In this document: one piece after another, positions 205-41,104 of the stretch
Position numbering within the stretch: position 1 is the stretch's first letter
Layout of the letters: each line of letters begins with the position of its first letter
NCBI GenBank assembly: GCA_013151745.1
Contig: JAADHS010000160.1
Coordinates: 1 to 61,102, forward strand
DNA length: 61,102 nt
Reading direction: 5' to 3'
From: Gammaproteobacteria bacterium
GTDB lineage: Bacteria; Pseudomonadota; Gammaproteobacteria; JAADHS01
The notes under the pieces: generated by a model
Databases searched by the model: none
What the model was told of the DNA's origin: nothing
The model's input: only the letters and a program-made list of their open reading frames with translations
Made by a program: the position numbers and the translations under genes

Positions 205-3129
205 TTATACTTGTACCTGCTCTGCCAGTGCATCATTAAGCTGGCGCTCGATTTTCCGTTTGTAATTCAAAAAATAAATAGTTTGTACATGCTCATCAAC
301 CCCACCATGACTTAACATCGCATGAGGCATATCCATATCTGTAATATAGATGGGGTAAGGTTCTCTATTTTTACGTAGCGACAGCACATGTTGAGCCACT
401 TTTTTGAAAAGAGCAGGCCCATATTCTGCTGAAGAAAACTCCATCTCATTACAATAAATCCGAAACACCGGGATATGATCAACTACCGCTCCAATGACTT
501 GTATATTAAACACTCGAGTTGGCCTTGAATTTTGGTGTAATTCACGCCTGGCAATACTAGGATCAGGCGACCCTGCTCTTGATATGATTTCAAAATATTC
601 GATGTCTTTTACTTCACTCATGTTTTCTTCTTCAAAGCCTATGATTTCATACCGTTGACGATTTAATATAGAGTCAAAAAATAGAGAAAAATGGGAAAGC
701 ACGGAACGACCATCAACAAAAGACATTTTTTGAAAGAATAATGAACCTCTTTCATCCAGCACATAAATTTCGGTAAGGACACCCGAAATTTGATAAAAGA
801 GCTGCACAACACCCGGACGATTAAACGAAAACAAGGAAGGAAGCAGCGTTTTTTGGAGAGCCTGCCGGTCTATTACAACAGGTCGATATCGATCATAATG
901 TTCGCCTAGTTGAGCAACTAACTCAGGGTAGGAGTGAGCCACTTCATAATTTAAAATATTATTTTCGATATCAGTAATGTAAAATTTATTTTCTACAGAA
1001 AGAATGTATCTTGAATCTCCTCCTTGTTCCGATTGATAAAAACAAGCAACCACATCTCGAAATAATTCTTCGATGCGTTTTTTTATGGTGATCGCTCTCC
1101 CTGACGAATAGCACTGAGCGGATAACTCTGGCGGGGTTACCCCCTTGCTTATTGGCGTCCATCTCACATATTCCCGCAAACATTCCAATAAACCTGATGC
1201 ACCCGTGTAACGTGATGTTAATACTTCCTTCCAGGTGGTAATGGTAATCATATCAAAGCTTAATGCCAAATTTTCCCCCAAACCGCCATAACTCAATGCA
1301 TCGTTATGATCGCTCATCAAATGATGGCCATTACGAGCGTATTCTTTCATGGGGTCGATGCCTAAATTCACAAATATACCCACATGTAGTGCCAACGCAC
1401 CTGTCATGAAATCTGATATTTCAGTCTTGATTACATTTTTTTCTGGAAACAAGCGTTGAAACGAAAATAACAGCTCTTTTAACTCTCGAGACGTAAAATC
1501 ACTTTCATTACTCTGCATGGCCAGCACAGTATTATTATTCATCATGGCATTGAAATGACACCAGGAAAGTAACTCAATAAGACTGTGCGATCGTCGCAAA
1601 GGCCGCTCTTTTATCGTTTCATTTTCCTTAAGAGGTGCTGTAAACAACAACCAACTTTCTTTACCATCTTGGCCCACTGAACGATAAAAAGATAAATGGC
1701 TTTCCCGAAGATTACTGGAAATGCCTCGATTGACAATTTCAACTTTTCCCGCCTTTCTTTCAAAAGCGGCATAAAGTTTACGACCGAGTATATTTAAATC
1801 TTTTTGGTTTATAGAAGCCAGTTGAGCGTGCTTTCGAGCAAAATCTGATAAAAATCGATAACTAAACGTGAGCGCTTTGACCAATGCCGCCCGCTCCTTG
1901 ACGACGCGCCCAATTTTCCATTCAGAGCGGGAATCAAGCATTGCCAAATAATCCTCTCGCCACGCCCAGGACTGGGTGACAGATTTCATTAAATCACGTC
2001 GCCAGCTTTCTTCTCGGCGTTTATCAGGAACACTGAGTGGTTCATTAACCTTGAAATAAAAACAGCGTCGCAATAAGGACAAGCGCTCACTTTCCTCTCT
2101 TTGTTCCAAATAATCTTCAAGTTTTTTATACATCATAATATAAGGGTCTAGCTCATCAAGATTGATTTCTCCGTCATAAATAGCTTGCTTAAATAAGTGG
2201 CATAGCAATTTGATATCAGGATATTCCGCAGCATAGCTTTCCATCAATAAAAGCTTAAGCACCGACTTATAAGGCGAATCAATACTTTTATACAATTGCC
2301 ATAGCGCCGCACCAAAAAACTCTTCCGCAGGCACACCAGGCAACGCACCAAGGTCTATATATTCATTCTTCGTGATAAAGCGCTTTGCCCGTAAAGATGC
2401 CGCATAAGCTTCATAATTATTTTCTTGGTCCGGTGGAATAATCCACCACAAGGGATAACGACCACACAGTAACAGCCCTGTTCTGTAAAACTCTTCCATC
2501 AACAAGTAGTGTTGCGCACTACCACTGCTTTCTGCTGAAATATCTTCGTGAACCCCCTTGCCGAAAGTTTCCGCTTCCACTAAGAAAAAATGAACCTCAA
2601 GATCAAAGCTCATCGCCCATTCTTCTATGGCTAATCCTTTTTGTCTAAGCTGTTTCAGCTGATCTCCGTCAAGTTCTTTGGTGTGACAGACCCAGATGTC
2701 AAAATCACTTTTTTTAGAATACGCTACGGTGCCACCACTACCCATAAGAAATAGTGAATAAATATCGAAGCGTAATAATGCTCTTCTTTTTTGATCAAAA
2801 CTTTTAGAAAACTTTTTTATGGTTTTAATCGTAAAATCAGAGGGGCGATATTCAGCAACCCCGGCTGGTGTGGATTTAGAAATAAATCCAGGCAAAGAGG
2901 GGTGATTAATATGAAATAATAACGGTAATACTTCGAGAAAATCACGCTGTCGTTCCCGCAAAGCGCTTTGCGTACGCTGTAATCTTTCTCTGTTTAGCGC
3001 CATAAAACGCTTTTTAACCGTATTGATTTCTTCTAAAGTTGGTTTTTCGCTTTTTAACATAGGGTCATACTCTGTATGACTTATCGGCTCAAGCACGCGA
3101 AGATTCAACAAATTTGCGACATCGGTCAC
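205..3129 (-). CDS. cyaA: class I adenylate cyclase CyaA
   Basis: Makes cAMP from ATP in the cytoplasm for CRP-type regulators. The N-terminal half carries the class I nucleotidyltransferase signature: GSGGT near residues 130-134, followed by an SDFDIWVCH motif whose two aspartates (142, 144) are the expected metal ligands. At 974 aa it is longer than the enterobacterial enzyme but within the range of other gammaproteobacteria. The C-terminal half is the usual poorly conserved regulatory region. The start is a GTG with only a weak upstream ribosome site, so a slightly later start is possible. It is transcribed away from the neighbouring PAS/GGDEF gene. A Crp/Fnr-family protein is encoded at 13.7 kb but no link between the two is visible. 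Confidence 0.95.
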   Translation of the reverse strand: MTDVANLLNLRVLEPISHTEYDPMLKSEKPTLEEINTVKKRFMALNRERLQRTQSALRERQRDFLEVLPLLFHINHPSLPGFISKSTPAGVAEYRPSDFTIKTIKKFSKSFDQKRRALLRFDIYSLFLMGSGGTVAYSKKSDFDIWVCHTKELDGDQLKQLRQKGLAIEEWAMSFDLEVHFFLVEAETFGKGVHEDISAESSGSAQHYLLMEEFYRTGLLLCGRYPLWWIIPPDQENNYEAYAASLRAKRFITKNEYIDLGALPGVPAEEFFGAALWQLYKSIDSPYKSVLKLLLMESYAAEYPDIKLLCHLFKQAIYDGEINLDELDPYIMMYKKLEDYLEQREESERLSLLRRCFYFKVNEPLSVPDKRREESWRRDLMKSVTQSWAWREDYLAMLDSRSEWKIGRVVKERAALVKALTFSYRFLSDFARKHAQLASINQKDLNILGRKLYAAFERKAGKVEIVNRGISSNLRESHLSFYRSVGQDGKESWLLFTAPLKENETIKERPLRRSHSLIELLSWCHFNAMMNNNTVLAMQSNESDFTSRELKELLFSFQRLFPEKNVIKTEISDFMTGALALHVGIFVNLGIDPMKEYARNGHHLMSDHNDALSYGGLGENLALSFDMITITTWKEVLTSRYTGASGLLECLREYVRWTPISKGVTPPELSAQCYSSGRAITIKKRIEELFRDVVACFYQSEQGGDSRYILSVENKFYITDIENNILNYEVAHSYPELVAQLGEHYDRYRPVVIDRQALQKTLLPSLFSFNRPGVVQLFYQISGVLTEIYVLDERGSLFFQKMSFVDGRSVLSHFSLFFDSILNRQRYEIIGFEEENMSEVKDIEYFEIISRAGSPDPSIARRELHQNSRPTRVFNIQVIGAVVDHIPVFRIYCNEMEFSSAEYGPALFKKVAQHVLSLRKNREPYPIYITDMDMPHAMLSHGGVDEHVQTIYFLNYKRKIERQLNDALAEQVQV

Positions 3130-3484
3130 CTATTTTCGAAAGCGTATTGCACTAATTAATTGATGTATTTATGGTTTGATAACGCACATCGCCTATTTTG
3201 GACTGTACAGACACCCGGTAAAACGTTTAACCTAGAAAACGCAACTGGACACGGATGTGGAAGATAGAGCGACGCAGGATGCTAAAGCCGAGAGGAAACA
3301 ATCGTAGTTGGCTTGGTTGGTGATGCAACTTTTCTTGCTCAGTCAAAAAAATCAATATCTTATGCTATAGACCGTGGATCAACAGTGTTTTTTTTGGGTT
3401 TAATCTGAGGCTCATTCATCCAGGTTCTTTTATTAGAAATACGAAATATGGGTCGTCTTTTCATCGCTATGGAGTACATCAACA
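3130..3484. other. intergenic region between cyaA and the PAS/GGDEF gene
   Basis: This 355-bp divergent spacer must hold promoters for both flanking genes, but no convincing -35/-10 pair stands out. It contains one copy (about 3231-3260) of the dispersed repeat listed separately. After that comes a purine-rich stretch related to what follows the 41.2-kb copy. A GGAG ribosome site precedes the ATG at 3485. Confidence 0.4.
3231..3260 (+). repeat. dispersed intergenic repeat, copy 1
   Basis: Begins CCTAGAAAACGC and continues through CTGGACACGGATGT. It matches copies near 29.8, 32.6 and 41.2 kb in most positions and is the most diverged of the four. It is flanked by non-coding sequence on both sides. 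Confidence 0.55.
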
Positions 3485-4306
3485 ATGAGCAACTCGCTAG
3501 ACTCAACACTAGCTACTTTATCTTTAGAGACCGCCCCCATTGGCGTGTTGATTGTTCATACCAAAGGGGATATCATCTTTTTCAATAAAACGTTCAAGAC
3601 CCTGTTCCATATCAACCGCCCACCTGAAAGTGCCCATATTGACGCATTACCGACAACGCTTAGAGACGCCATAAAGAATCAAAAAGAAGAAATAACAATA
3701 CATAGCAAGGCAACAGATACAAAACATTTTTATAAATGTTGGTATAATCCATCCGTCGATGAAAAAGATCACTCAATTTGGTTTTTCCTGGATGTGACGA
3801 AAACGACCCAGGTCTATCAAGAGCGTGACCGTTTGGCGAACGAGCTGTCCAAAGTCTCTACGCGTGATCCGCAAACGGGACTCCCCAATAAAAGTGCCTT
3901 GATGCAAGGTCTGGAACCCTTGGTATCACGCAGCCGTCGCTATAACAATCCACTGTCCTTGATTCGCCTCCGCATTAATATAAAAGCAGAATATATTGAT
4001 CAGCTAGAAAATATTATGCTGCTTTTGTCTCGTTTTCTCCGAGATCAAATGCGCTGGGCCGACATGGTAGGCCGGTTAACGGCGAATGAATTTCTGCTAG
4101 TATTGCCCGAGACTGGAGAACAGGCAGCCAATACCCTGGCTCATAAAATAACGAAAAAACTCAGCCAGTTAGCTGTTCAAAAACAAGATTCCATACCCAG
4201 CATTTCTATTGAAAGTGGTGTCTCCAGCTGGTTCAAAGGGGATGATATGATGCGTTTGATCCATAATACAGAACAGAACCTGATACAAAACACAAAGCAA
4301 AGCTAA
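3485..4306 (+). CDS. PAS domain protein with a degenerate GGDEF domain
   Basis: A soluble 273-aa protein with no signal peptide or membrane helix. Residues about 10-110 look like a PAS fold. A short helical linker follows (DRLANELSKVSTRDPQTGLPNKSAL), the usual entry to a GGDEF domain, which fills residues about 128-270. The catalytic GGDEF signature is replaced by LTANEF, so diguanylate cyclase activity is unlikely. A GTP-binding, receptor or partner role is more plausible. The ATG is preceded by GGAG. It converges on argH with an 8-bp gap. Confidence 0.75.
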   Translation: MSNSLDSTLATLSLETAPIGVLIVHTKGDIIFFNKTFKTLFHINRPPESAHIDALPTTLRDAIKNQKEEITIHSKATDTKHFYKCWYNPSVDEKDHSIWFFLDVTKTTQVYQERDRLANELSKVSTRDPQTGLPNKSALMQGLEPLVSRSRRYNNPLSLIRLRINIKAEYIDQLENIMLLLSRFLRDQMRWADMVGRLTANEFLLVLPETGEQAANTLAHKITKKLSQLAVQKQDSIPSISIESGVSSWFKGDDMMRLIHNTEQNLIQNTKQS

Positions 4307-4314
4307 AACCCCAA

Positions 4315-5700
4315 TTACAACGCCCTCTCCCTTGCAATTGCCGCTCGCACTTGTGAGGGTGCGGTTCCCCCAATATGATCACGCGCCGCCACGGAACCTT
4401 CCAAGCTAAGTACCGTAATAACATCTTGTTCTATGTCTGCAGAAAATTTTTGCAACTCCGCTAGAGACAGCTCCGACAAATCTTTATTTTGCTCAACACC
4501 ATAACGCACCGCTTGACCTACCACCTCATGCGCATCACGAAAAGCCAGGCCTTTACGTACTAAATAATCGGCCAGATCTGTCGCGGTTGAAAATCCTTGT
4601 AGCGCTGCCTTTTTCATATTTTTTTTATTGGCCATGATTACCGGTACCATATCAGCAAAAATACTCACCGACATTTTCACCGTATCAACCGCATCAAACA
4701 GCGGCTCTTTATCCTCCTGATTGTCTTTATTATAGGCTAGGGGCTGACCTTTCATTATAGTTAACAGGGCAATCAAATCACCATTCACTCTCCCGGTTTT
4801 GCCTCTGACCAGCTCGGGTATATCCGGATTTTTTTTCTGCGGCATAATGGAAGAGCCAGTGCAAAAACGATCGGGTAATTCGATAAAATTAAACTGAGCC
4901 GATGACCAGATGATCAGTTCCTCTGAAAATCGGGATAAATGCATCATAATAATCGCCGCAGAACTGCAAAATTCAATAGCAAAGTCTCTGTCGCTGACGG
5001 CATCCAGTGAGTTTTCACACAGCCCATCAAAACCCAGTAAAGACGCGGTATAGGCTCTATCAATGGGATACGTTGTCCCTGCCAGCGCCGCCGCCCCCAA
5101 TGGCATCCGGTTGACACGTTGGCGACAGTCCCTCATCCGCAAACCATCCCGTTTTAACATTTCGTACCAGGCTAATAAATGATGGCCAAAAGTGACCGGC
5201 TGAGCGACCTGTAAATGCGTAAACCCGGGCATGATCGTATCCGCTTCTTTTTCGGCCAAATCCAGCAGTCCATTTTTCAAACGATCAAGCTGCATCATCA
5301 AATTATCAATTTCATCACGTAAATATAAACGAATATCGGTTGCCACCTGGTCATTACGTGAACGCCCTGTGTGGAGTTTTTTGCCGGCGATACCTATTTT
5401 TTCTGTTAATTTTGCCTCAATATTCATGTGGACATCTTCCAGAGCAATTGACCACTCGAACTCACCCGCCTCAATATCCAACAAAATTTGATCTAAACCC
5501 TGGCAAATCGACGAACACTCATCCTCTGTCAGCACACCCACCTTAGCCAGCATCTGCGCATGCGCCTGAGAGCCAAGAATGTCATAACGATACAATCGTT
5601 GATCAAAACCCACAGAAGAATTGAAGATTTCTACGGCCACATGAGTCGCTTCGCTAAAGCGTCCTCCCCATAGCTTTCTTTTTGGTTCATTTTTTGACAC
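4315..5700 (-). CDS. argH: argininosuccinate lyase
   Basis: Splits argininosuccinate into arginine and fumarate, the last step of arginine synthesis. The fumarase/aspartase-superfamily signature [12 protein letters not shown] is intact and the [12 protein letters not shown] substrate loop is present. I place the start at the GTG at 5700, ten codons inside the longest open frame: GGAG lies 6 nt upstream of it (5707-5710), and the resulting 461 aa is the normal family length. It is divergent from hemC, and this argH-hemC adjacency is common in gammaproteobacteria. Confidence 0.95.
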
Positions 5701-5808
5701 AAGGCACTCCAAATTTAAAAACAAAATCAACAGGTTACAAATCGTACTAGAACTCTAAGCCAATGCAAGGTAGCATGAGTGTTTTCCGTAAGTACACTTG
5801 AAACGACC

Positions 5809-31571: not shown

Positions 31572-32435
31572 ATGACATTTTCAGACTTTATAACTCAACA
31601 TGAAATAACGATTCGTTTAAGCTTTTTTTTCGGCGTTTTTGCTTTGATGGCGCTATGGGAAATCAAAGCACCACGACGAGCGTTGATCGTCTCCAAGGCA
31701 ATGCGCTGGGTCAACAACCTGGGTCTGGTCGTGTTGAACAGTATTATTTTACGCTTGCTTTTTCCGGCAGCGGCAATCGGCGTAGCCGCTTTTGCGACTG
31801 AGCACGGCTGGGGGCTATTCAATCATTTCAGGATTCCCATTCCCTTGGCCGTGGTGCTTTCTGTCATCGCGATGGATTTCATCATTTACCTGCAACATGT
31901 GCTGGTTCATGCTATCCCCACCCTGTGGCGGCTACATCGGGTACATCATGCTGACCTCGATTACGATGTCACCACCGGGGCACGCTTCCACCCCATCGAA
32001 ATTATTCTGTCGATGTTGATCAAATTTGCCACTATTGTAGTGTTGGGCGCACCCGTTGTCGCCGTCGTGATTTTTGAAGTGATATTGAATGCCATGGCCA
32101 TGTTTAATCATGGTAACGTGGGTCTGCCCTCGAAACTGGATCGCTTCATGCGACTCTTTGTTGTCACACCGGATATGCACCGAGTACATCACTCAACTGA
32201 GGACAACGAAACCAACAGTAACTTTGGTTTCAACCTCTCAATTTGGGATCGCCTCTTTGGCACTTACATTGCTCAGCCTCGCGCTGGCCACCTTAAAATG
32301 GACATCGGCATTCACTACTACCGAGACCCCAAACAAGTTTCCCAACTTCCGGGCATGTTGACTCTTCCCTTTGTTGGTAAAATCACAGGGTATGCCATTA
32401 ATCGACGTGAGTGGAAAAAACCAAACAAAAAATAA
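31572..32435 (+). CDS. sterol desaturase / fatty acid hydroxylase superfamily protein
   Basis: 287-aa membrane di-iron protein with about four helices. The histidine clusters expected for the diiron site are present: HVLVH, HRVHHAD, a central HNGN-like region and HRVHHS. It probably hydroxylates or desaturates a lipid; the substrate cannot be read from sequence. A single-gene unit, divergent from lnt. Confidence 0.85.
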   Translation: MTFSDFITQHEITIRLSFFFGVFALMALWEIKAPRRALIVSKAMRWVNNLGLVVLNSIILRLLFPAAAIGVAAFATEHGWGLFNHFRIPIPLAVVLSVIAMDFIIYLQHVLVHAIPTLWRLHRVHHADLDYDVTTGARFHPIEIILSMLIKFATIVVLGAPVVAVVIFEVILNAMAMFNHGNVGLPSKLDRFMRLFVVTPDMHRVHHSTEDNETNSNFGFNLSIWDRLFGTYIAQPRAGHLKMDIGIHYYRDPKQVSQLPGMLTLPFVGKITGYAINRREWKKPNKK

Positions 32436-33829: not shown

Positions 33830-34027
33830 GCCAAAGTATATGTGATTGCTTTTTGAGTCGGCTCATTGCTTTTCTCTTGTTTCTTCGTTGTGGGGAATGT
33901 GAACAGGTATCCGTTATGAGTTCTTCAACTGACAAAGCCGGGATGATAAAAGCAGAAGTTATTGCGTTCCCACTCCTGACATGGCACAGTTTAAAAATAC
34001 TATAAATCGTGTTTGGAGGTTGTTTAC

Positions 34028-34498
34028 ATGTCTGAGTTGGTCAGGTTCGGCGTTTCTATTGATCATGGCCTGTTGGATCAATTTGATAAACAAATTGCCC
34101 GTAAGGGGTATAAAAATCGTTCTGAGGCCATTCGGGATTTGATTCGTGACCATATGGTAGAACAGGAATGGGAAGCCAATACGGAGACCGTCGGCACCTT
34201 CACCATGGTCTACGATCATCACACTCGAGACCTTTCGCTAACCTTAACGCACCTTCAGCACTCCTTTGTTGGCGAGATTTGCTCCGTACTGCATGTTCAT
34301 CTTGATCATAATAACTGCCTTGAAGTATTAGTATTGAAAGGCAAAGCCCAGTTGCTGCAATCACTGGCCGACAAGCTGGTCAGTGTACGGGGCGTTAAGC
34401 ACGGCAAACTGACCATGACAACGACCGGGGAGGCCATGCCAAGCGGTCCGGGAGACCATAGCCATGCACACTCTGATGACGGGCACTCCCATTCCTAA
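34028..34498 (+). CDS. nikR: nickel-responsive regulator NikR
   Basis: Ribbon-helix-helix repressor, 156 aa. Residues 1-50 are the RHH DNA-binding domain ([16 protein letters not shown]). The C-terminal ACT-like domain has the four high-affinity nickel ligands His78, His89, His91 and Cys97, each two higher than the E. coli numbers. The tail after residue 140 is an added His-rich segment ([14 protein letters not shown]) not found in E. coli NikR. The start at 34028 follows GGAGG. It is the natural candidate to control the operator at 40.66-40.71 kb. Confidence 0.95.
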
Positions 34499-34608: not shown

Positions 34609-35646
34609 CTAGAAACCCACCTGGAACTGGGCTAATAAAACATTGTCGGTATAGCCGATGCTTTCAACAATACCTGTAAAGCTATCGGTATCGCCACTGG
34701 CGAACACATAGTTCAACTGAATACGCGCATCTTTCTGCTTTTTAGCCAGAAAAATATTCCAACCAAGGTAGGTATTGCCCAGGCTGGTACTATTGCCACT
34801 GGCTGTTTCGCTGTCAGCAGCATAGTGACGAAGAACAATTTCGTTCATTTTATTGACTGCGTAACCACCATGCACATACCAAACACTTTCGTCGTAATCT
34901 TTCTTGCCTTTTACATTACTACCAAAAATGTACTCCGCTTTAAACGTCATCGCACCCATTTTGTAGTAACCGGCCAGATCAAATACCGTGTAATCTTCTG
35001 CAGCGGATCCTGAGTCCTGGGTGCTGACACCATAGGAAGCCTCAATGTGCAGATCTTCGTTCATGTCATACATCACCCGACCCGCGTAGGCCGTACCGTC
35101 ACCGGCTTCCCCAAAGTCAACGGCACCCGAACGCTGGGCAGGGTTGAATACACCTACATCATAACCAAAGCCCCCCAGCTTGCGACCGCTCACCATCAAA
35201 CCAGCAGCACGATTTAACACCAAATACGATTCCAAACCCCGCTTGGTAATATCCAACTGCTTGCTGGCGTTGCCGAAGTCCATGCCAACAGGTGTTTTGA
35301 AAATACCGGCACTGATCTTGGCAGCATCATTAAATTTATAACCCACCACCGCATCTTGGATGATTTCAGGTATACCGATGCGGTCACCTTTATCGGTTTT
35401 ATTGAAATCCGCTTGCAGCTTGCCCCACACTTTGCCATGTGTAATTTGGTAGCCCAGACGGATACTATCAGCACCAAAACGTAAGCTATCTGCCGTATTC
35501 CCTTCCTTGCCCTTACCAACAGCAGCGGTAATTTGAGAATAACCAAAGAAGTTGGCTTTCGTGCTACTTTCATCAGCGGCACTCACCATCATCGGTGCGG
35601 CAACAACCGCTGCGGCTGCGGCCAGGGTAATCACATTTTTTTTCAT
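34609..35646 (-). CDS. OprO/P-type porin
   Basis: 345 aa with signal peptide (…MMVSAADE) and a barrel ending AQFQVGF. The order of segments (RLGYQITHGKVWGKLQADF, VVGYKFNDAAKISAGIFKTP, NRAAGLMVSG) resembles the phosphate/polyphosphate-selective porin O/P family rather than general trimeric porins. Specificity is not readable. It lies between nikR and a second porin gene, so a metal-complex substrate is possible but unproven. Confidence 0.7.
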   Translation of the reverse strand: MKKNVITLAAAAAVVAAPMMVSAADESSTKANFFGYSQITAAVGKGKEGNTADSLRFGADSIRLGYQITHGKVWGKLQADFNKTDKGDRIGIPEIIQDAVVGYKFNDAAKISAGIFKTPVGMDFGNASKQLDITKRGLESYLVLNRAAGLMVSGRKLGGFGYDVGVFNPAQRSGAVDFGEAGDGTAYAGRVMYDMNEDLHIEASYGVSTQDSGSAAEDYTVFDLAGYYKMGAMTFKAEYIFGSNVKGKKDYDESVWYVHGGYAVNKMNEIVLRHYAADSETASGNSTSLGNTYLGWNIFLAKKQKDARIQLNYVFASGDTDSFTGIVESIGYTDNVLLAQFQVGF

Positions 35647-35882
35647 GAAACAATTCTCCCCAATATTCGAATTATTTTAATTCAAAAACATACTTCAAGC
35701 ATCAAGATTATATTTATAGCAGTAATCGATGGAAATGCAACACTTTTAATCATTATGTTACAGAGATTTATACCTTTTTGTTGTTTTTACGCAACAATCA
35801 TGTAAAGCGTATTGTGCTCTTTATATGTTGGCGTAAGGTATAATACTTATTACAATAATACTTAACACAGGGAGCCATAAAA
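35647..35882. promoter_or_regulatory. divergent porin promoter region
   Basis: A consensus TATAAT lies at 35839-35844, in the right place for the rightward porin gene, but with no clear -35. An inverted repeat ACAAT/ATTGT (35794-35798, 35811-35815) lies just upstream and could be an operator. The 40.7-kb heptamers are not present in intact form. Confidence 0.35.
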
Positions 35883-36944
35883 GTGAAAAGAAATCTAACG
35901 ACGCTGTCGATAGCCGTAGCGCTGGCAACACCTTTAACCGCTGGGGCAGTCGAAGTTGCCGGTGAAAAACTGGACATATACAGCAAAATTCATGTTTCGA
36001 TTGACTATAGCGACCAAGATGATCCTGATGTCAATAACGATGGCATGAGTATTTCCAGTAACTCCTCTCTCCTCGGCTTTAAAGGCAAGCTACCCTTGGA
36101 AAACGGAATGAAAGTCATTTGGCAAGTTGAGCAAGAAGTACGTTGGGACGACAGCTCCACGGGTAATTTTGCCAATCGTAACAGCTATGTCGGATTGGCC
36201 AGCGACGCGAACAGCCTTCGCGTTGGTGTCTATGACACCCCCTTCAAAACTGTGGCCTCAAAATGGGGGTTATTTGGCGACTCCGTCGGCGAACGTCGAG
36301 GCATGCTCGGTGCTGGTAATCAAAATGGTAATCAACTCAACGAGCGCGTCAAAAACTCGGTGATGTACCAGTTCGAAAATGAGACACTGAATATTCAAGC
36401 CATGTATGCCGTAGAACCAGAAGACACTTCCAATGCGGTTGATGATAACGACAAAGCGATGTTTGGCGCTGGCGTATGGTGGAAAATCAGCAGCCTCACA
36501 CTCTCTATGGCTTACGAAAATTGGAAAGAACACAGTGCAATCCGGGATGGCCAAGCTTTCCGTGTTGCCGCTGTCTACGGTCTCGGCGACCACCAGTTGG
36601 GAGGCATTTATGAGAACATCGACTCCGATACAGTTAACGAATGGCAACGTAACGCCTTCGGCGTAAACTGGAAATGGCAGTTTACGGGGCACACTGATGT
36701 TCGTGCTCAATACATGATGGTAGATGATGCCGACAATTCACCGAACACCGCTGCCAGCAAAATCGGTCTCGGCGTCTTTCACAAGCTGGACAAAAAGGCT
36801 GACGTTTACGTCGCGTATGCGATCACCGACAATGACGATAATGCCCAATTCCAAGCGGTCGATGGTGGTCACGGCAATGAAGTCAAAACGGTTAATGGGG
36901 GCACCCCTAGCTCCCTCTCTCTGGGAATGATCTACAAGCTCTAA
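35883..36944 (+). CDS. Gram-negative porin (trimeric type)
   Basis: 353 aa, GTG start with GGAG 8 nt upstream. The signal peptide ends LTAGAVE. The porin pattern is clear: SSNSSLLGFKGKLPLENGMKVIWQVEQEV, NRNSYVGLASDANSLRVGVYDTPFK, an acidic constriction-loop region, and a C-terminal LSLGMIYKL. Probably general diffusion of small solutes. Confidence 0.85.
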   Translation: MKRNLTTLSIAVALATPLTAGAVEVAGEKLDIYSKIHVSIDYSDQDDPDVNNDGMSISSNSSLLGFKGKLPLENGMKVIWQVEQEVRWDDSSTGNFANRNSYVGLASDANSLRVGVYDTPFKTVASKWGLFGDSVGERRGMLGAGNQNGNQLNERVKNSVMYQFENETLNIQAMYAVEPEDTSNAVDDNDKAMFGAGVWWKISSLTLSMAYENWKEHSAIRDGQAFRVAAVYGLGDHQLGGIYENIDSDTVNEWQRNAFGVNWKWQFTGHTDVRAQYMMVDDADNSPNTAASKIGLGVFHKLDKKADVYVAYAITDNDDNAQFQAVDGGHGNEVKTVNGGTPSSLSLGMIYKL

Positions 36945-37154: not shown

Positions 37155-37763
37155 CTAGTTAGCATCGCGTATAAACGCAGCCAACAACACAGCCGCATCT
37201 CGTATCGCTACAGCAAATTCGCGAGTGGCCTTATCGGATGAAGCCAGTTCGTCGGCTTTGGCGATTAATTCTTCTAGGGAAAGTCCGGCGTAATCTGCAA
37301 TCAGAGCCGTACCCACATTGCCCTCAAAATCCACCACATATTTTTCATTGACACTCAAAATGGCCGCCTGAGTAAGGCGATGATCTGCATCAATGCCCAC
37401 AGCAAACTCAAGATCACCATGACGATAATTTGTTTTACCCACATAAGCGGCTCCGACGATCACGTTGCTCTGTCTATCGGTGGCCCGGTAGTAGCTGTAA
37501 AGTTTGTCATCCAACTCGACACGGTAGGTTTTTTTCGCCCACTCGACTCCATCGGCTTTCAATGGCTGTTTACGCTTGACGATTTTGGCACCAGCGGGCA
37601 ACATTTCTTTGAGTGCTGCTTTTTTCTTTATAAAATCGACGGTCGATCCCGCATGACCTTTATGCGCCTGGACATTTTGTGACCCGATGGCGAGAGTGAG
37701 ACCCACGACCAACAAGGGAGCAAACAAATAAACAAGCGGACGATGAGTATAATTCAATTTCAT
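37155..37763 (-). CDS. exported FMN-binding-domain-like protein
   Basis: 202 aa with a signal peptide/anchor (…AIGSQNVQAHKGHAG). The core (YYRATDRQSNVIVGAAYVGK, then LEFAVGIDADHRLTQAAILSVNEKY) resembles the fold of FMN_bind/RnfG-type domains. The Ser/Thr-Gly-Ala-Thr flavinylation motif is missing, so covalent FMN is unlikely. It starts with a HKGH metal-ligand-like sequence. Last gene of the putative NikR-controlled operon. Moderately sure of the family, unsure of the role. Confidence 0.5.
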   Translation of the reverse strand: MKLNYTHRPLVYLFAPLLVVGLTLAIGSQNVQAHKGHAGSTVDFIKKKAALKEMLPAGAKIVKRKQPLKADGVEWAKKTYRVELDDKLYSYYRATDRQSNVIVGAAYVGKTNYRHGDLEFAVGIDADHRLTQAAILSVNEKYVVDFEGNVGTALIADYAGLSLEELIAKADELASSDKATREFAVAIRDAAVLLAAFIRDAN

Positions 37764-37795
37764 TTTAATTCCTTATATTAATGGTAATAGCGCAG

Positions 37796-38431
37796 CTAAT
37801 TTTGCTCTGCTGACTTCATCAGCCACAGCTCCCATAACACTCGGAATGAGATGAAAGCAAAGCAAAGCCCTATGGTCGTGCCCATGGCGACGGTCAGATA
37901 AGCAAAACTACCCGAAACAAAACGCACTAAATTGAGGCTGATAATATCGCCCCATAAACCGAAAAACAACAGTGTAACGACGAGAGCTTTAATCGTTTCT
38001 GTCAATTGTGTGAGACAAACAAGTCCCCCCATGGCCAGCAAAAGCAAAGCAAACGACAACAGATGAACATGAGAAACCTGCGCCAGAATTTGCGGCGGCA
38101 GCGTATCATCGCCACTCATTCCCGCACCATGATCCATCTTGGACATATCCATTTGCGAGTGATCCATTCCCTCCATACTCATTTCGCCTTCATCGTCGAA
38201 AGAAAATTCTTCTTCGGCAAAGCCTTGCTCGGCGATCGCGGTCGCCTCAGTACTGGAAAGGCTTTTATCGGCATAATGATCGGCAATGGCTTGTGGACTC
38301 ATACCGACGGACAACGCGGCATTAAACACCGCAGCTAAATAACCACTCCCCAAAATAATAATAAAACCACTGATTAAGATTTTCCATGAAAAAGACACCT
38401 TGGCAAAGTTAAATGCGCTGAGCATCATCAT
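37796..38431 (-). CDS. four-helix inner-membrane protein with Met/His-rich loop
   Basis: 211 aa. One helix lies at about 14-34, then an extracytoplasmic region with a Met/His/Asp-rich metal-binding-like stretch (MEGMDHSQMDMSKMDHGAGM, about 83-102). A cluster of three helices (about 122-200) begins HVHLLSFALLLLAMGGL. No named transporter family is recognisable. It overlaps no neighbour: the DUF4198 stop is 1 bp away, implying translational coupling. A candidate permease or redox partner of the metal system. Confidence 0.55.
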   Translation of the reverse strand: MMMLSAFNFAKVSFSWKILISGFIIILGSGYLAAVFNAALSVGMSPQAIADHYADKSLSSTEATAIAEQGFAEEEFSFDDEGEMSMEGMDHSQMDMSKMDHGAGMSGDDTLPPQILAQVSHVHLLSFALLLLAMGGLVCLTQLTETIKALVVTLLFFGLWGDIISLNLVRFVSGSFAYLTVAMGTTIGLCFAFISFRVLWELWLMKSAEQN

Positions 38432-38432
38432 C

Positions 38433-39239
38433 TTACTCTCCTAAATCGTGGGTTTTAACCCAAAGCACCGCACCCAGCTCAACAGGATAATTTTTTTCTT
38501 CATGACTCATCGTCTCTCCACTTTCAACCAGCGCGGCCATTCCCCACCAACCCGCTTTTGGCATAACATAAGCAAACACGCCATTGGCATCTGTTTTAAT
38601 AACTTGAGTGATAAAGGGATCAGCAGGTGCTTTAAGGTCACCCTTTTCATTATAATACTCAACCTCTACACGAGCAAAAGCCACCGGTTTGCCATTGTGT
38701 TTGACCACGCCACGAAACAAATTATTCGTCCACAGCCCATAGGGTCTGGCCAAGGGGATGATTTCCATGGGTAGACCCAGTTCATGATCCCAGCCTTCTT
38801 CCATGCCAAAGGCATTCACTACTGTTTTGGTGTAATGGATGATAAAGCGCTCTTCCGCAGCCTCCCAATATGGCTGAGGTTCAACGAAAAAAAGATGATC
38901 GCCGGGCTTGCGAATTTTATAACTGCTTTGATAAGCAGACAAGGTATCGCCGGCATGATCCTGATAGCTTGTCTGTTGCAGCTTGTCCAGTAAATCAGTC
39001 TCTTTTCCGGCCACCCAAACGCCAAAGCGTTTGGGTTTTTTCATATTGAGCCCCATACCTTCAAAGGGATGGGTAAAAATCAAATCAAGACGAAGCTCAC
39101 GACTTTCGCCTGCAGAAACAATTTCATCTGAAGGAATAATCATTTGAAAATGAGCGTAAGCGGGTGCAAACACACCCACCATACCGATCATCAATAGTAG
39201 CTTGCTCAAAAATCGTTTACACCACAACGTACTTGTCAT
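38433..39239 (-). CDS. DUF4198 periplasmic metal-uptake-associated protein
   Basis: 268 aa with a signal peptide ending PAYAHFQM. The first mature residues (AHFQMIIPS) are the DUF4198 hallmark, where an N-terminal His can bind metal. FTHPFEGMGLNMKKP, PYWEAAEE and a C-terminal carboxypeptidase-regulatory-like beta domain (FRGVVKHNGKPVAFARVEVE) follow. NikK-type DUF4198 proteins accompany nickel/cobalt importers. Located centrally in the operon. Confidence 0.8.
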   Translation of the reverse strand: MTSTLWCKRFLSKLLLMIGMVGVFAPAYAHFQMIIPSDEIVSAGESRELRLDLIFTHPFEGMGLNMKKPKRFGVWVAGKETDLLDKLQQTSYQDHAGDTLSAYQSSYKIRKPGDHLFFVEPQPYWEAAEERFIIHYTKTVVNAFGMEEGWDHELGLPMEIIPLARPYGLWTNNLFRGVVKHNGKPVAFARVEVEYYNEKGDLKAPADPFITQVIKTDANGVFAYVMPKAGWWGMAALVESGETMSHEEKNYPVELGAVLWVKTHDLGE

Positions 39240-39257
39240 AACACTCTCCTGTATGCC

Positions 39258-40292
39258 TTACAGAGCCGTACTCCAGCCCATACTCCAGCGATATTTTTCG
39301 TCGTTAGAGATGCCCGTTAGTTCTTGGTAGATAGGGAATGAAACATTGGCGTAAACACCCTGTTTCTTGTTAATTTTGAAATTAAGACCGGGCGAGAGAT
39401 AAATCACATCACCACCACTGTTTTTCTTAATTTCATCGTTCTCAATATCTTGTTCGAAGAATATACCATTTAACTCAATGACCGGCACAATTGAACTGTG
39501 ATGAGCAAAGCTCGTTGCCACATCAAACTGCCAGGAATTACCTGCACGAAATTGTTTGGCACCCTGAGTACCAAAACGATAGATTATATCCGCATCTAAA
39601 GCAATTTTTTTCGTGAGATGGCCACTATAGGCCACGCCACCTTGAAAGGTAATCGCACCACTACCGGGTTGGTTATGTGTACCAATGATCTCACTTTTGC
39701 CTGTTCCCTTGTTTATGTCCGTTTCATTTGTAATCTTGCCGGTAGGCAGAATGACACCGAACACAGAGGCCCACTGATTGTCGCCATCGTTGAAAAAGCG
39801 ATAGCGGCCTGTGACCAACATATCACCGAACCCTGGAGACTCTGAGGTAGAAGAGACACAATTGGCCGAACCAAGATCGCCCTTAACCGCCGGGTTACCA
39901 GCAAAACACTCGCTCGCATTTTGATCGCCGTTATCTTTAAAGCCTTTAAAATTGTTGTATTGCAGCATGATATTGATATCCATATCTTCATTGACCGGAA
40001 AGCCAAACGAAAGAAAATAGGCATCCTCACTAGAGTGCATATGTACATCTTCACCATCGGCTCTGAAATCTATCAACTGCTGATCGCTGAACGTTTCATA
40101 ACGACGCGCATCCCAGCGTAAACCAATTACTTTTTCTTCAAGAATGGCCGCACCCACCGAATTGATACTGCCAGAGCCCCCACCGCGAATCGATTCACCA
40201 TGAGCGTGAGCTAATGACATGCCTCCCAGTAGCAGGGGAAGACTTGCTGTGGTCAGTAATGACATTTTACGTAATAATTTGTGTCTGGACAT
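39258..40292 (-). CDS. outer-membrane channel-like protein with His-tipped N-terminus
   Basis: 344 aa. The signal peptide ends MSLAHAHGE, so the mature protein starts with a His pair. A GGGSGSINSVG turn follows, then barrel-like strands (YFLSFGFPVNEDMDINIMLQYN, GFGDMLVTGRYRFF, WASVFGVILPTGK) of the MetA-pathway/'transporter' OM family. A VHMHSSED segment may bind metal. It is probably the OM component of the system. Confidence 0.65.
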   Translation of the reverse strand: MSRHKLLRKMSLLTTASLPLLLGGMSLAHAHGESIRGGGSGSINSVGAAILEEKVIGLRWDARRYETFSDQQLIDFRADGEDVHMHSSEDAYFLSFGFPVNEDMDINIMLQYNNFKGFKDNGDQNASECFAGNPAVKGDLGSANCVSSTSESPGFGDMLVTGRYRFFNDGDNQWASVFGVILPTGKITNETDINKGTGKSEIIGTHNQPGSGAITFQGGVAYSGHLTKKIALDADIIYRFGTQGAKQFRAGNSWQFDVATSFAHHSSIVPVIELNGIFFEQDIENDEIKKNSGGDVIYLSPGLNFKINKKQGVYANVSFPIYQELTGISNDEKYRWSMGWSTAL

Positions 40293-40325
40293 TTTGAACT
40301 CGACTCCCTAATGCTTTAAGTTTAA

Positions 40326-40511
40326 TTATTCGTGGTGACCATCATCATGTTGATGACTATGCTCAATTTCCTCGTGACTATGCTCGTGTTCATGCTCTTC
40401 TGTGACATCCCCATCATGAACATGAGTATGATGTCCGTCATCGTGACGATGGACATGGGTGTGAGTCACCTGACGGTGGATATGCCGATGATAAGTTACA
40501 TCACATGCCAT
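40326..40511 (-). CDS. small histidine-rich protein (61 aa)
   Basis: MACDVTYHRHIHRQVTHTHV opens a protein in which about 20 of 61 residues are His, with Asp/Glu runs and DDGHH repeats. No signal peptide, so it is probably a cytoplasmic metal buffer or chaperone. It has AGGA about 9 nt upstream and is the first gene of the leftward operon, 33 bp before the OM gene. The promoter at 40673-40702 is directly upstream. Confidence 0.65.
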   Translation of the reverse strand: MACDVTYHRHIHRQVTHTHVHRHDDGHHTHVHDGDVTEEHEHEHSHEEIEHSHQHDDGHHE

Positions 40512-40655
40512 CTGATTTTATCCTGCTTGAATATTAAAAAACCGAAAGGAGAATGGACATCTCGAACCTTATCGGCGTAACAATGAAAAAAGCAACAGCT
40601 TTTCTAGTACTTAATTTTCAGCTAAAAGCTTTATTTGCAAAACCAATTACCGCAA

Positions 40656-40714
40656 GTAGCATGATTTAGAGAATCATAGCACCGACCGTGCTACGATGTC
40701 AACACTCGTGCTAC
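40656..40714. promoter_or_regulatory. symmetric four-half-site operator (NikR-type candidate)
   Basis: Four heptamers: GTAGCAT 40656-40662, ATAGCAC 40676-40682, GTGCTAC 40688-40694 and GTGCTAC 40708-40714. The inner and the outer pairs are both centred on 40685, and starts within each half are 20 bp apart. Two 7-bp half-sites at a 20-bp pitch match the geometry of tetrameric NikR. From memory, the GTGTTAC...GTAACAC consensus reported for deltaproteobacterial and archaeal NikR is close to these heptamers. It covers the leftward promoter from about -50 to +9. Confidence 0.65.
40673..40702 (-). promoter_or_regulatory. sigma70 promoter of the metal operon
   Basis: On the minus strand TTGACA (40702-40697) and TATGAT (40678-40673) are separated by 18 bp. 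Both boxes lie inside the four-site operator, so a bound repressor would block polymerase. Confidence 0.65.
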
Positions 40715-40753
40715 TTTACCTGGGAAAATACGTTTTCCAAACTAAAGCTTCAC

Positions 40754-40783
40754 TTGAAATGGCCGTTAGTGAATCTGTATATT
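40754..40783 (+). promoter_or_regulatory. promoter of the His-rich 88-aa gene
   Basis: TTGAAA (40754-40759), an 18-bp spacer and TATATT (40778-40783). It lies outside the operator, which is about 40 bp further upstream, so control of this gene may differ from that of the operon. Confidence 0.5.
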
Positions 40784-40837
40784 CGACAACGGGGTTATCA
40801 AACTTCAATCTAAAAAACAATCAAGGAAACTTTGACT

Positions 40838-41104
40838 ATGGAAGGTAAGCACCAACATTCACATACCCACGAACATCAACACTCACATCAACATGAGCAT
40901 GTACATACGCACGAAGATGGCACTCAGCACAGTCACGGCCATGAACATAACCATGCGCACGCACATGGCCATGAACATGCGCATCAGCATAACCACGCGG
41001 CAGACAGCAATGAACATGACCATCAACATGAGGAAAGTGAACTAGAAGATCATGAGCACAACCACCCCGGCCATGAAAATGAATCCCACGATCATAGCCA
41101 TTAA
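40838..41104 (+). CDS. extremely histidine-rich protein (88 aa)
   Basis: 33 of 88 residues are His, mostly as alternating XH dipeptides (HQHSHTHEHQHSHQHEHVHT...), with a short acidic interruption (EESELED). No signal peptide and almost no hydrophobic residues. It is comparable in composition to Hpn-type nickel-storage proteins and His-rich HypB/UreE tails, but not homologous in any way I can show. I place the start at ATG 40838, 10 nt after AAGGA. Likely a cytoplasmic nickel/zinc reservoir. Confidence 0.7.
   Translation: MEGKHQHSHTHEHQHSHQHEHVHTHEDGTQHSHGHEHNHAHAHGHEHAHQHNHAADSNEHDHQHEESELEDHEHNHPGHENESHDHSH

Follow-up and report, generated by a model that had tools for sequence, protein, structure and literature searches.

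The outer-membrane proteins FecA3 and FrpB4 of Helicobacter pylori are NikR-regulated nickel receptors of the TonB-dependent kind that belong to a nickel uptake route. To our knowledge, little is understood of how nickel crosses the outer membrane and the periplasm in Gram-negative bacteria when neither TonB receptors nor NikA take part. NikK and NikL are accessory subunits that take the place of NikN in NikKMLQO importers (PMC545781, PMC2667541), a few of which are predicted, from their B12 gene neighbors, to be cobalt carriers (PMC2667541). A separate nikK gene is known in D. vulgaris (PMC545781), and a DUF4198 protein from Ideonella binds nickel with a Kd of 18 nM via its N-terminal histidine (PMC12537917).

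Here, we compare with these systems a locus on a 61,102-nucleotide contig of a gammaproteobacterium (JAADHS010000160.1, assembly GCA_013151745.1), the whole of which we call the window. The earlier note had described six genes around one control region, two of them encoding histidine-rich proteins, as a candidate NikR-controlled nickel (or cobalt) system that could span the envelope. All six were present where it had placed them when sequence and open reading frames were checked. The features of the locus are as follows.

34013-34498, + strand: nikR, nickel-responsive repressor (NikR_C PF08753, E 5e-31; NF003381 equivalog, 204 bits, cut-off 105)
37155-37763, - strand: exported protein with FMN_bind/RnfG fold (fold from model; no Pfam hit of its own)
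37796-38431, - strand: four-helix membrane protein with a Met/His-rich periplasmic loop (no Pfam family)
38433-39239, - strand: NikK (DUF4198/PF10670), periplasmic (PF10670, E 3e-62)
39258-40292, - strand: outer-membrane beta-barrel (PF13557, E 4e-11)
40326-40511, - strand: His61, a 61-aa histidine-rich protein whose gene comes first in the cassette (20 of 61 residues His, 33%)
40656-40682, + strand: predicted NikR-type box over the -10, GTAGCATGATTTAGAGAATCATAGCAC (GTARCAC-N13-GTARCAC, up to 2 mismatches)
40673-40702, - strand: sigma-70-like promoter of the cassette, TTGACA-18-TATGAT (11/12 matches, extended -10)
40688-40714, - strand: predicted NikR-type box over the -35, GTAGCACGAGTGTTGACATCGTAGCAC (GTARCAC-N13-GTARCAC, no mismatch)
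40838-41104, + strand: divergent histidine-rich protein, 88 aa (33 of 88 residues His, 37.5%)

The cassette is transcribed on the minus strand in the order His61, outer-membrane (OM) barrel, DUF4198 protein, four-helix protein and FMN-binding-like protein, and the second histidine-rich gene leaves the same intergenic region in the opposite direction. For this divergent gene the ATG at 40838 is the better start, and nikR probably begins at the ATG at 34028. The distance from nikR to the cassette is 2.7 kb, taken up by a pair of divergent porin genes (34609-36944) with no strict NikR box between the two. Since the order OM barrel, DUF4198, four-helix, FMN-binding-like recurs in many gammaproteobacterial genomes, the row is more than a chance assembly. 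Barrel orthologs, 66-88% identical, hold the same position in the cassette; histidine-rich reading frames also lie upstream of the barrel gene in two related loci (L014 and L020), and a third (L015) carries a homolog of the divergent histidine-rich protein. Both histidine-rich proteins of the window are likely nickel buffers, judging from their composition. A search for defense systems gave no hits, and a description of this cassette was not found in the open-licence literature.

Control of the cassette by NikR is well supported by the predicted sites. A nikR gene is present in the genome and a predicted NikR box covers the promoter: with at most two mismatches, GTARCAC-N13-GTARCAC has just two matches in the 61 kb window, 5 bases apart, which between them cover the -35 and the -10 of the cassette promoter. 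Promoter-like sites in general were no more frequent than in shuffles. The published NikR box of delta-proteobacteria is GTGTTAC-N13/14-GTAACAC, with half-sites also found reversed (Rodionov and co-workers, PMC545781). Allowing one mismatch per half-site, this consensus finds a single pair in the window, at 40688-40714, whose half-sites (GTAGCAC) are each one base off a consensus that comes from another class. A strict box lies upstream of 10 of 15 related cassettes, against 0.13 expected in resampled sequence, a count that depends on the delta-proteobacterial consensus and includes the close relatives L015 and L078, which share the same box; the other five cassettes have no strict box. Related boxes stand 5' of nikL and nikM in three genomes (G058, G060 and G084), and the genome of the window has a weak one before its nikL. 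The broad pattern GTRNYAC-N13-GTRNYAC was not enriched genome-wide, occurring at three places with an equal count in the reversed control, and strict pairs were therefore used; at the other two places (L038 and L039) no nickel gene was seen. At known uptake genes, NikR represses at boxes that overlap the promoter. The overlap observed here fits repression by nickel-bound NikR, and repression rather than activation would be its mode of action.

The DUF4198 protein is, by its sequence, NikK, known as the periplasmic subunit of the NikKLMQO nickel importer. It falls with the NikK proteins of importer operons in one clade, apart from the type b DUF4198 proteins, and it is the only DUF4198 protein in the genome; a search of solved structures with it as query returned nothing. 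Reading the frames of the window bears out the earlier note in that no nikMQO, NiCoT or HupE gene is present there, yet contig C228 of the same genome carries a nikL-nikM-nikQ-nikO row without an adjacent nikK, and this row contains the one CbiM-family gene of the genome. NikK and NikL, NikM, NikQ and NikO are thus all encoded, though not in one row, an arrangement that is usual but not obligatory. Single rows do occur in relatives. In G002 (L090), which shares its family with the window's genome, nikR, nikK and nikLMQO are neighbors, and in G307 the order nikK-nikL-nikM-nikQ-nikO-four-helix-FMN follows an upstream NikR box, a gap of about 40 bases separating nikO from the adjoining four-helix gene. 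In G024, the same genome as G067, nikKLMQO lies ~11 kb from the cassette.

The locus therefore resembles the NikKLMQO (NikKMLQO) ECF transporter in its NikK, its NikR control and the nikLMQO genes of its genome, and in the single row of G307. It differs in that nikK has been relocated to a NikR-controlled unit of its own, to which the OM barrel, the four-helix Met/His-loop protein, the RnfG-fold protein and the histidine-rich proteins have been added. This suggests that nikLMQO can be served by an 'orphan' nikK from another place in the genome. Because in G307 the four-helix and FMN-fold genes end an importer row behind a NikR box, their products look like accessory parts of the importer. What is new are these two accessory families, neither with an earlier tie to nickel, and the arrangement, which brings together NikK, NikR, an OM channel and the two unnamed families as a single unit; nickel import as such is already known, so the novelty claimed in the earlier note is narrowed accordingly.

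Nearly all exported proteins of the system share a feature at their mature N-terminus. With signal-peptide cleavage sites read by eye, a histidine follows directly after the likely site in 11 of 12 OM barrels, 12 of 12 NikK, 6 of 7 NikL, 12 of 12 FMN-fold and 2 of 2 DUF3347 proteins. The window's DUF4198 protein would be cut between AYA and HFQM, and all 12 orthologs start with histidine. The HAHGE that had been noticed at the mature N-terminus of the OM protein is real, the barrel's mature start with histidine being HGESIRGGG. Like FecA3 and FrpB4, the barrel would be a NikR-controlled OM protein in a proposed nickel uptake route; unlike these TonB-dependent receptors, it belongs to the PF13557-type channels and has a histidine at its N-terminus.

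A Pfam scan assigned the four-helix protein to no family. It is a distant homolog of four-helix membrane cytochromes of other gammaproteobacteria (L004-L009), with which it shares the layout and a conserved SHxH and Asp in or near the helices, whereas a Met/His-rich loop stands where they have their CxxCH heme loop. The relatives themselves form a family of four-helix membrane proteins with CxxCH loop and conserved SHxH, and the two members scanned (L004 and L008) matched no Pfam family above its cut-off. The structure model showed four long helices at low confidence (pLDDT 66), and a fold search with it gave nothing usable. NiCoT permeases have about eight helices and an HX4DH signature; the four-helix protein has four long helices in this low-confidence model and, by reading, no HX4DH. 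Met/His loops frequently point to copper or silver, and the sole match of the loop among Cop/Pco proteins, to CopI, was below threshold (E 0.038).

The FMN-binding-like protein was modeled by AlphaFold with a pLDDT of 82, and its best Foldseek match was RnfG (probability 0.99, E 5e-3). At the sequence level, FMN_bind matches were found in 2 of 12 members and were weak (best E 0.043). Its predicted fold is thus that of RnfG and NqrC; unlike these, it lacks a covalent flavin motif, no Rnf or Nqr genes were seen beside it, and its mature form starts with HKGHAG, after a likely cleavage behind VQA. All 12 members have such an AHxGHA start after the likely signal peptide. The flavinylation motif Dxx(S/T)GA(T/S) was absent, by reading, from the aligned orthologs, among which a near-equivalent Thr is not conserved.

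To assess co-occurrence, we used a sample of 369 gammaproteobacterial genomes, in which the FMN-fold protein was found in 11 and NikR in 42. NikR was encoded in 10 of the 11 cassette genomes versus 32 of the 358 others (Fisher p 1.3e-9), a value that overstates independence because the genomes are related; the 11 fall in six families, hence fewer independent events. The co-occurrence with nikR envisaged in the earlier note is thereby borne out, G317 being the one cassette genome without it. NikM was present in 8 of the 11 and not seen in G183, G203 and G317, absences that are soft since the relatives are mostly draft genomes. Beyond the window's own, no FMN-fold homolog was found in a 398-genome sample of the phylum, so that the family seems restricted to certain gammaproteobacteria, and no plasmid record contained one. 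As for nickel consumers, urease is encoded in the window's genome; a NiFe hydrogenase was looked for there and, with none found, dropped as a candidate.

We consider it quite probable that the cassette serves nickel acquisition under repression by NikR, as a module working with the NikLMQO ECF importer of the other contig. The sequence itself gives the gene set, the boxes, the co-occurrence, the identity of NikK and the gene rows with nikLMQO in relatives; from these we infer nickel as the substrate. The best reading is an envelope nickel relay that would feed NikLMQO. When cell nickel is low, NikR would leave the two promoter boxes and the cassette would be expressed. Nickel may then enter through the non-TonB OM barrel and be caught in the periplasm by the N-terminal histidine of NikK, which would pass it to NikL/NikM; NikQO would then drive its import with ATP, in this putative order. 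The four-helix protein could act as a membrane-anchored accessory carrier and the RnfG-fold protein, with its HKGHAG start, as a soluble one, both holding nickel beside the importer, and the two histidine-rich proteins might buffer it. Urease is the likely consumer in this genome. A more specific version, a bucket chain of N-terminal histidines in which the four-helix and flavin-less RnfG-fold families, together with a non-TonB OM channel, feed the ECF importer, is tentative and somewhat doubtful.

The same genes could be read as part of a heavy-metal resistance island that works alongside CDF and Czc-type RND pumps to retain surplus nickel, cobalt or zinc in the envelope or to export it. Sequestration would suit the histidine-rich and Met/His-rich proteins, and because several relatives have efflux genes beside the cassette (CDF genes precede it in L011, L015, L078, L079 and L080; CzcA/AcrB-type RND pump genes lie near it in L011, L012, L013, L078, L079 and L080) we retain this reading, albeit as an unlikely one. 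In the window, however, no RND or CDF efflux gene stands beside the cassette, the NikR boxes cover the promoter as in a repressed uptake gene, and NikK is an importer subunit; moreover, the genes of G307 and G024 sit with nikLMQO, not with pumps. Cobalt in place of nickel, with a NikK-type system supplying B12 synthesis, would agree with the predictions from B12 neighbors (PMC2667541) and with the place of NikM in the CbiM family, but the NikR boxes, the nikR genes adjoining nikLMQO in relatives and the urease of this genome argue against it, no B12 genes were seen beside the cassettes, and we regard it as very improbable.

Two further readings concern the accessory proteins and, like cobalt supply, are less likely than a nickel relay feeding NikLMQO. 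The earlier note had taken the product of 37796-38431 for an unrecognized permease replacing the missing transporter. A cassette that works alone through such a new permease would fit the three cassette genomes without visible NikM and the conservation of SHxH and Asp in or near the helices. Nevertheless, NikLMQO is present in this genome, and G213 lacks the four-helix gene altogether, G215 has an internal deletion in it, and both keep NikM, so the gene is dispensable there; in G307 it stands behind a complete nikKLMQO, and its relatives are heme-c-bearing proteins, not known carriers. We thus rejected it as the main transporter, and a stand-alone permease seems improbable. Equally improbable is the redox-linked route, in which a flavin on the RnfG-fold protein would send electrons via the four-helix protein so as to release nickel from its ligands. 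The predicted RnfG/NqrC fold, the few FMN_bind matches and the cytochrome relatives of the four-helix protein would agree with it, but the missing flavinylation motif, the unconserved Thr and the Met/His loop in place of the heme site weaken it.

Several variants of the locus were also encountered. One form of the cassette (L017/G088 2061-5759; L022/G024; L010 6598-10511) keeps the four-helix and FMN-fold genes and swaps in another OM protein, with an AHHGG start, a DUF3347 protein and a type b DUF4198 protein. In G183 (L018 9869-10657; L081), the interval between this second OM gene type and the four-helix gene is without DUF3347 and DUF4198, and neither NikM nor DUF4198 was seen in that genome. 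The NikO of the window's genome (L052 291-1337) bears a long histidine-rich C-terminal tail, as does that of G307. Finally, a conserved neighbor gene, 77-79% identical, lies near the cassette or nikR at 31572-32435 in the window, at 5806-6081 in L015 and at 5870-6721 in L078.
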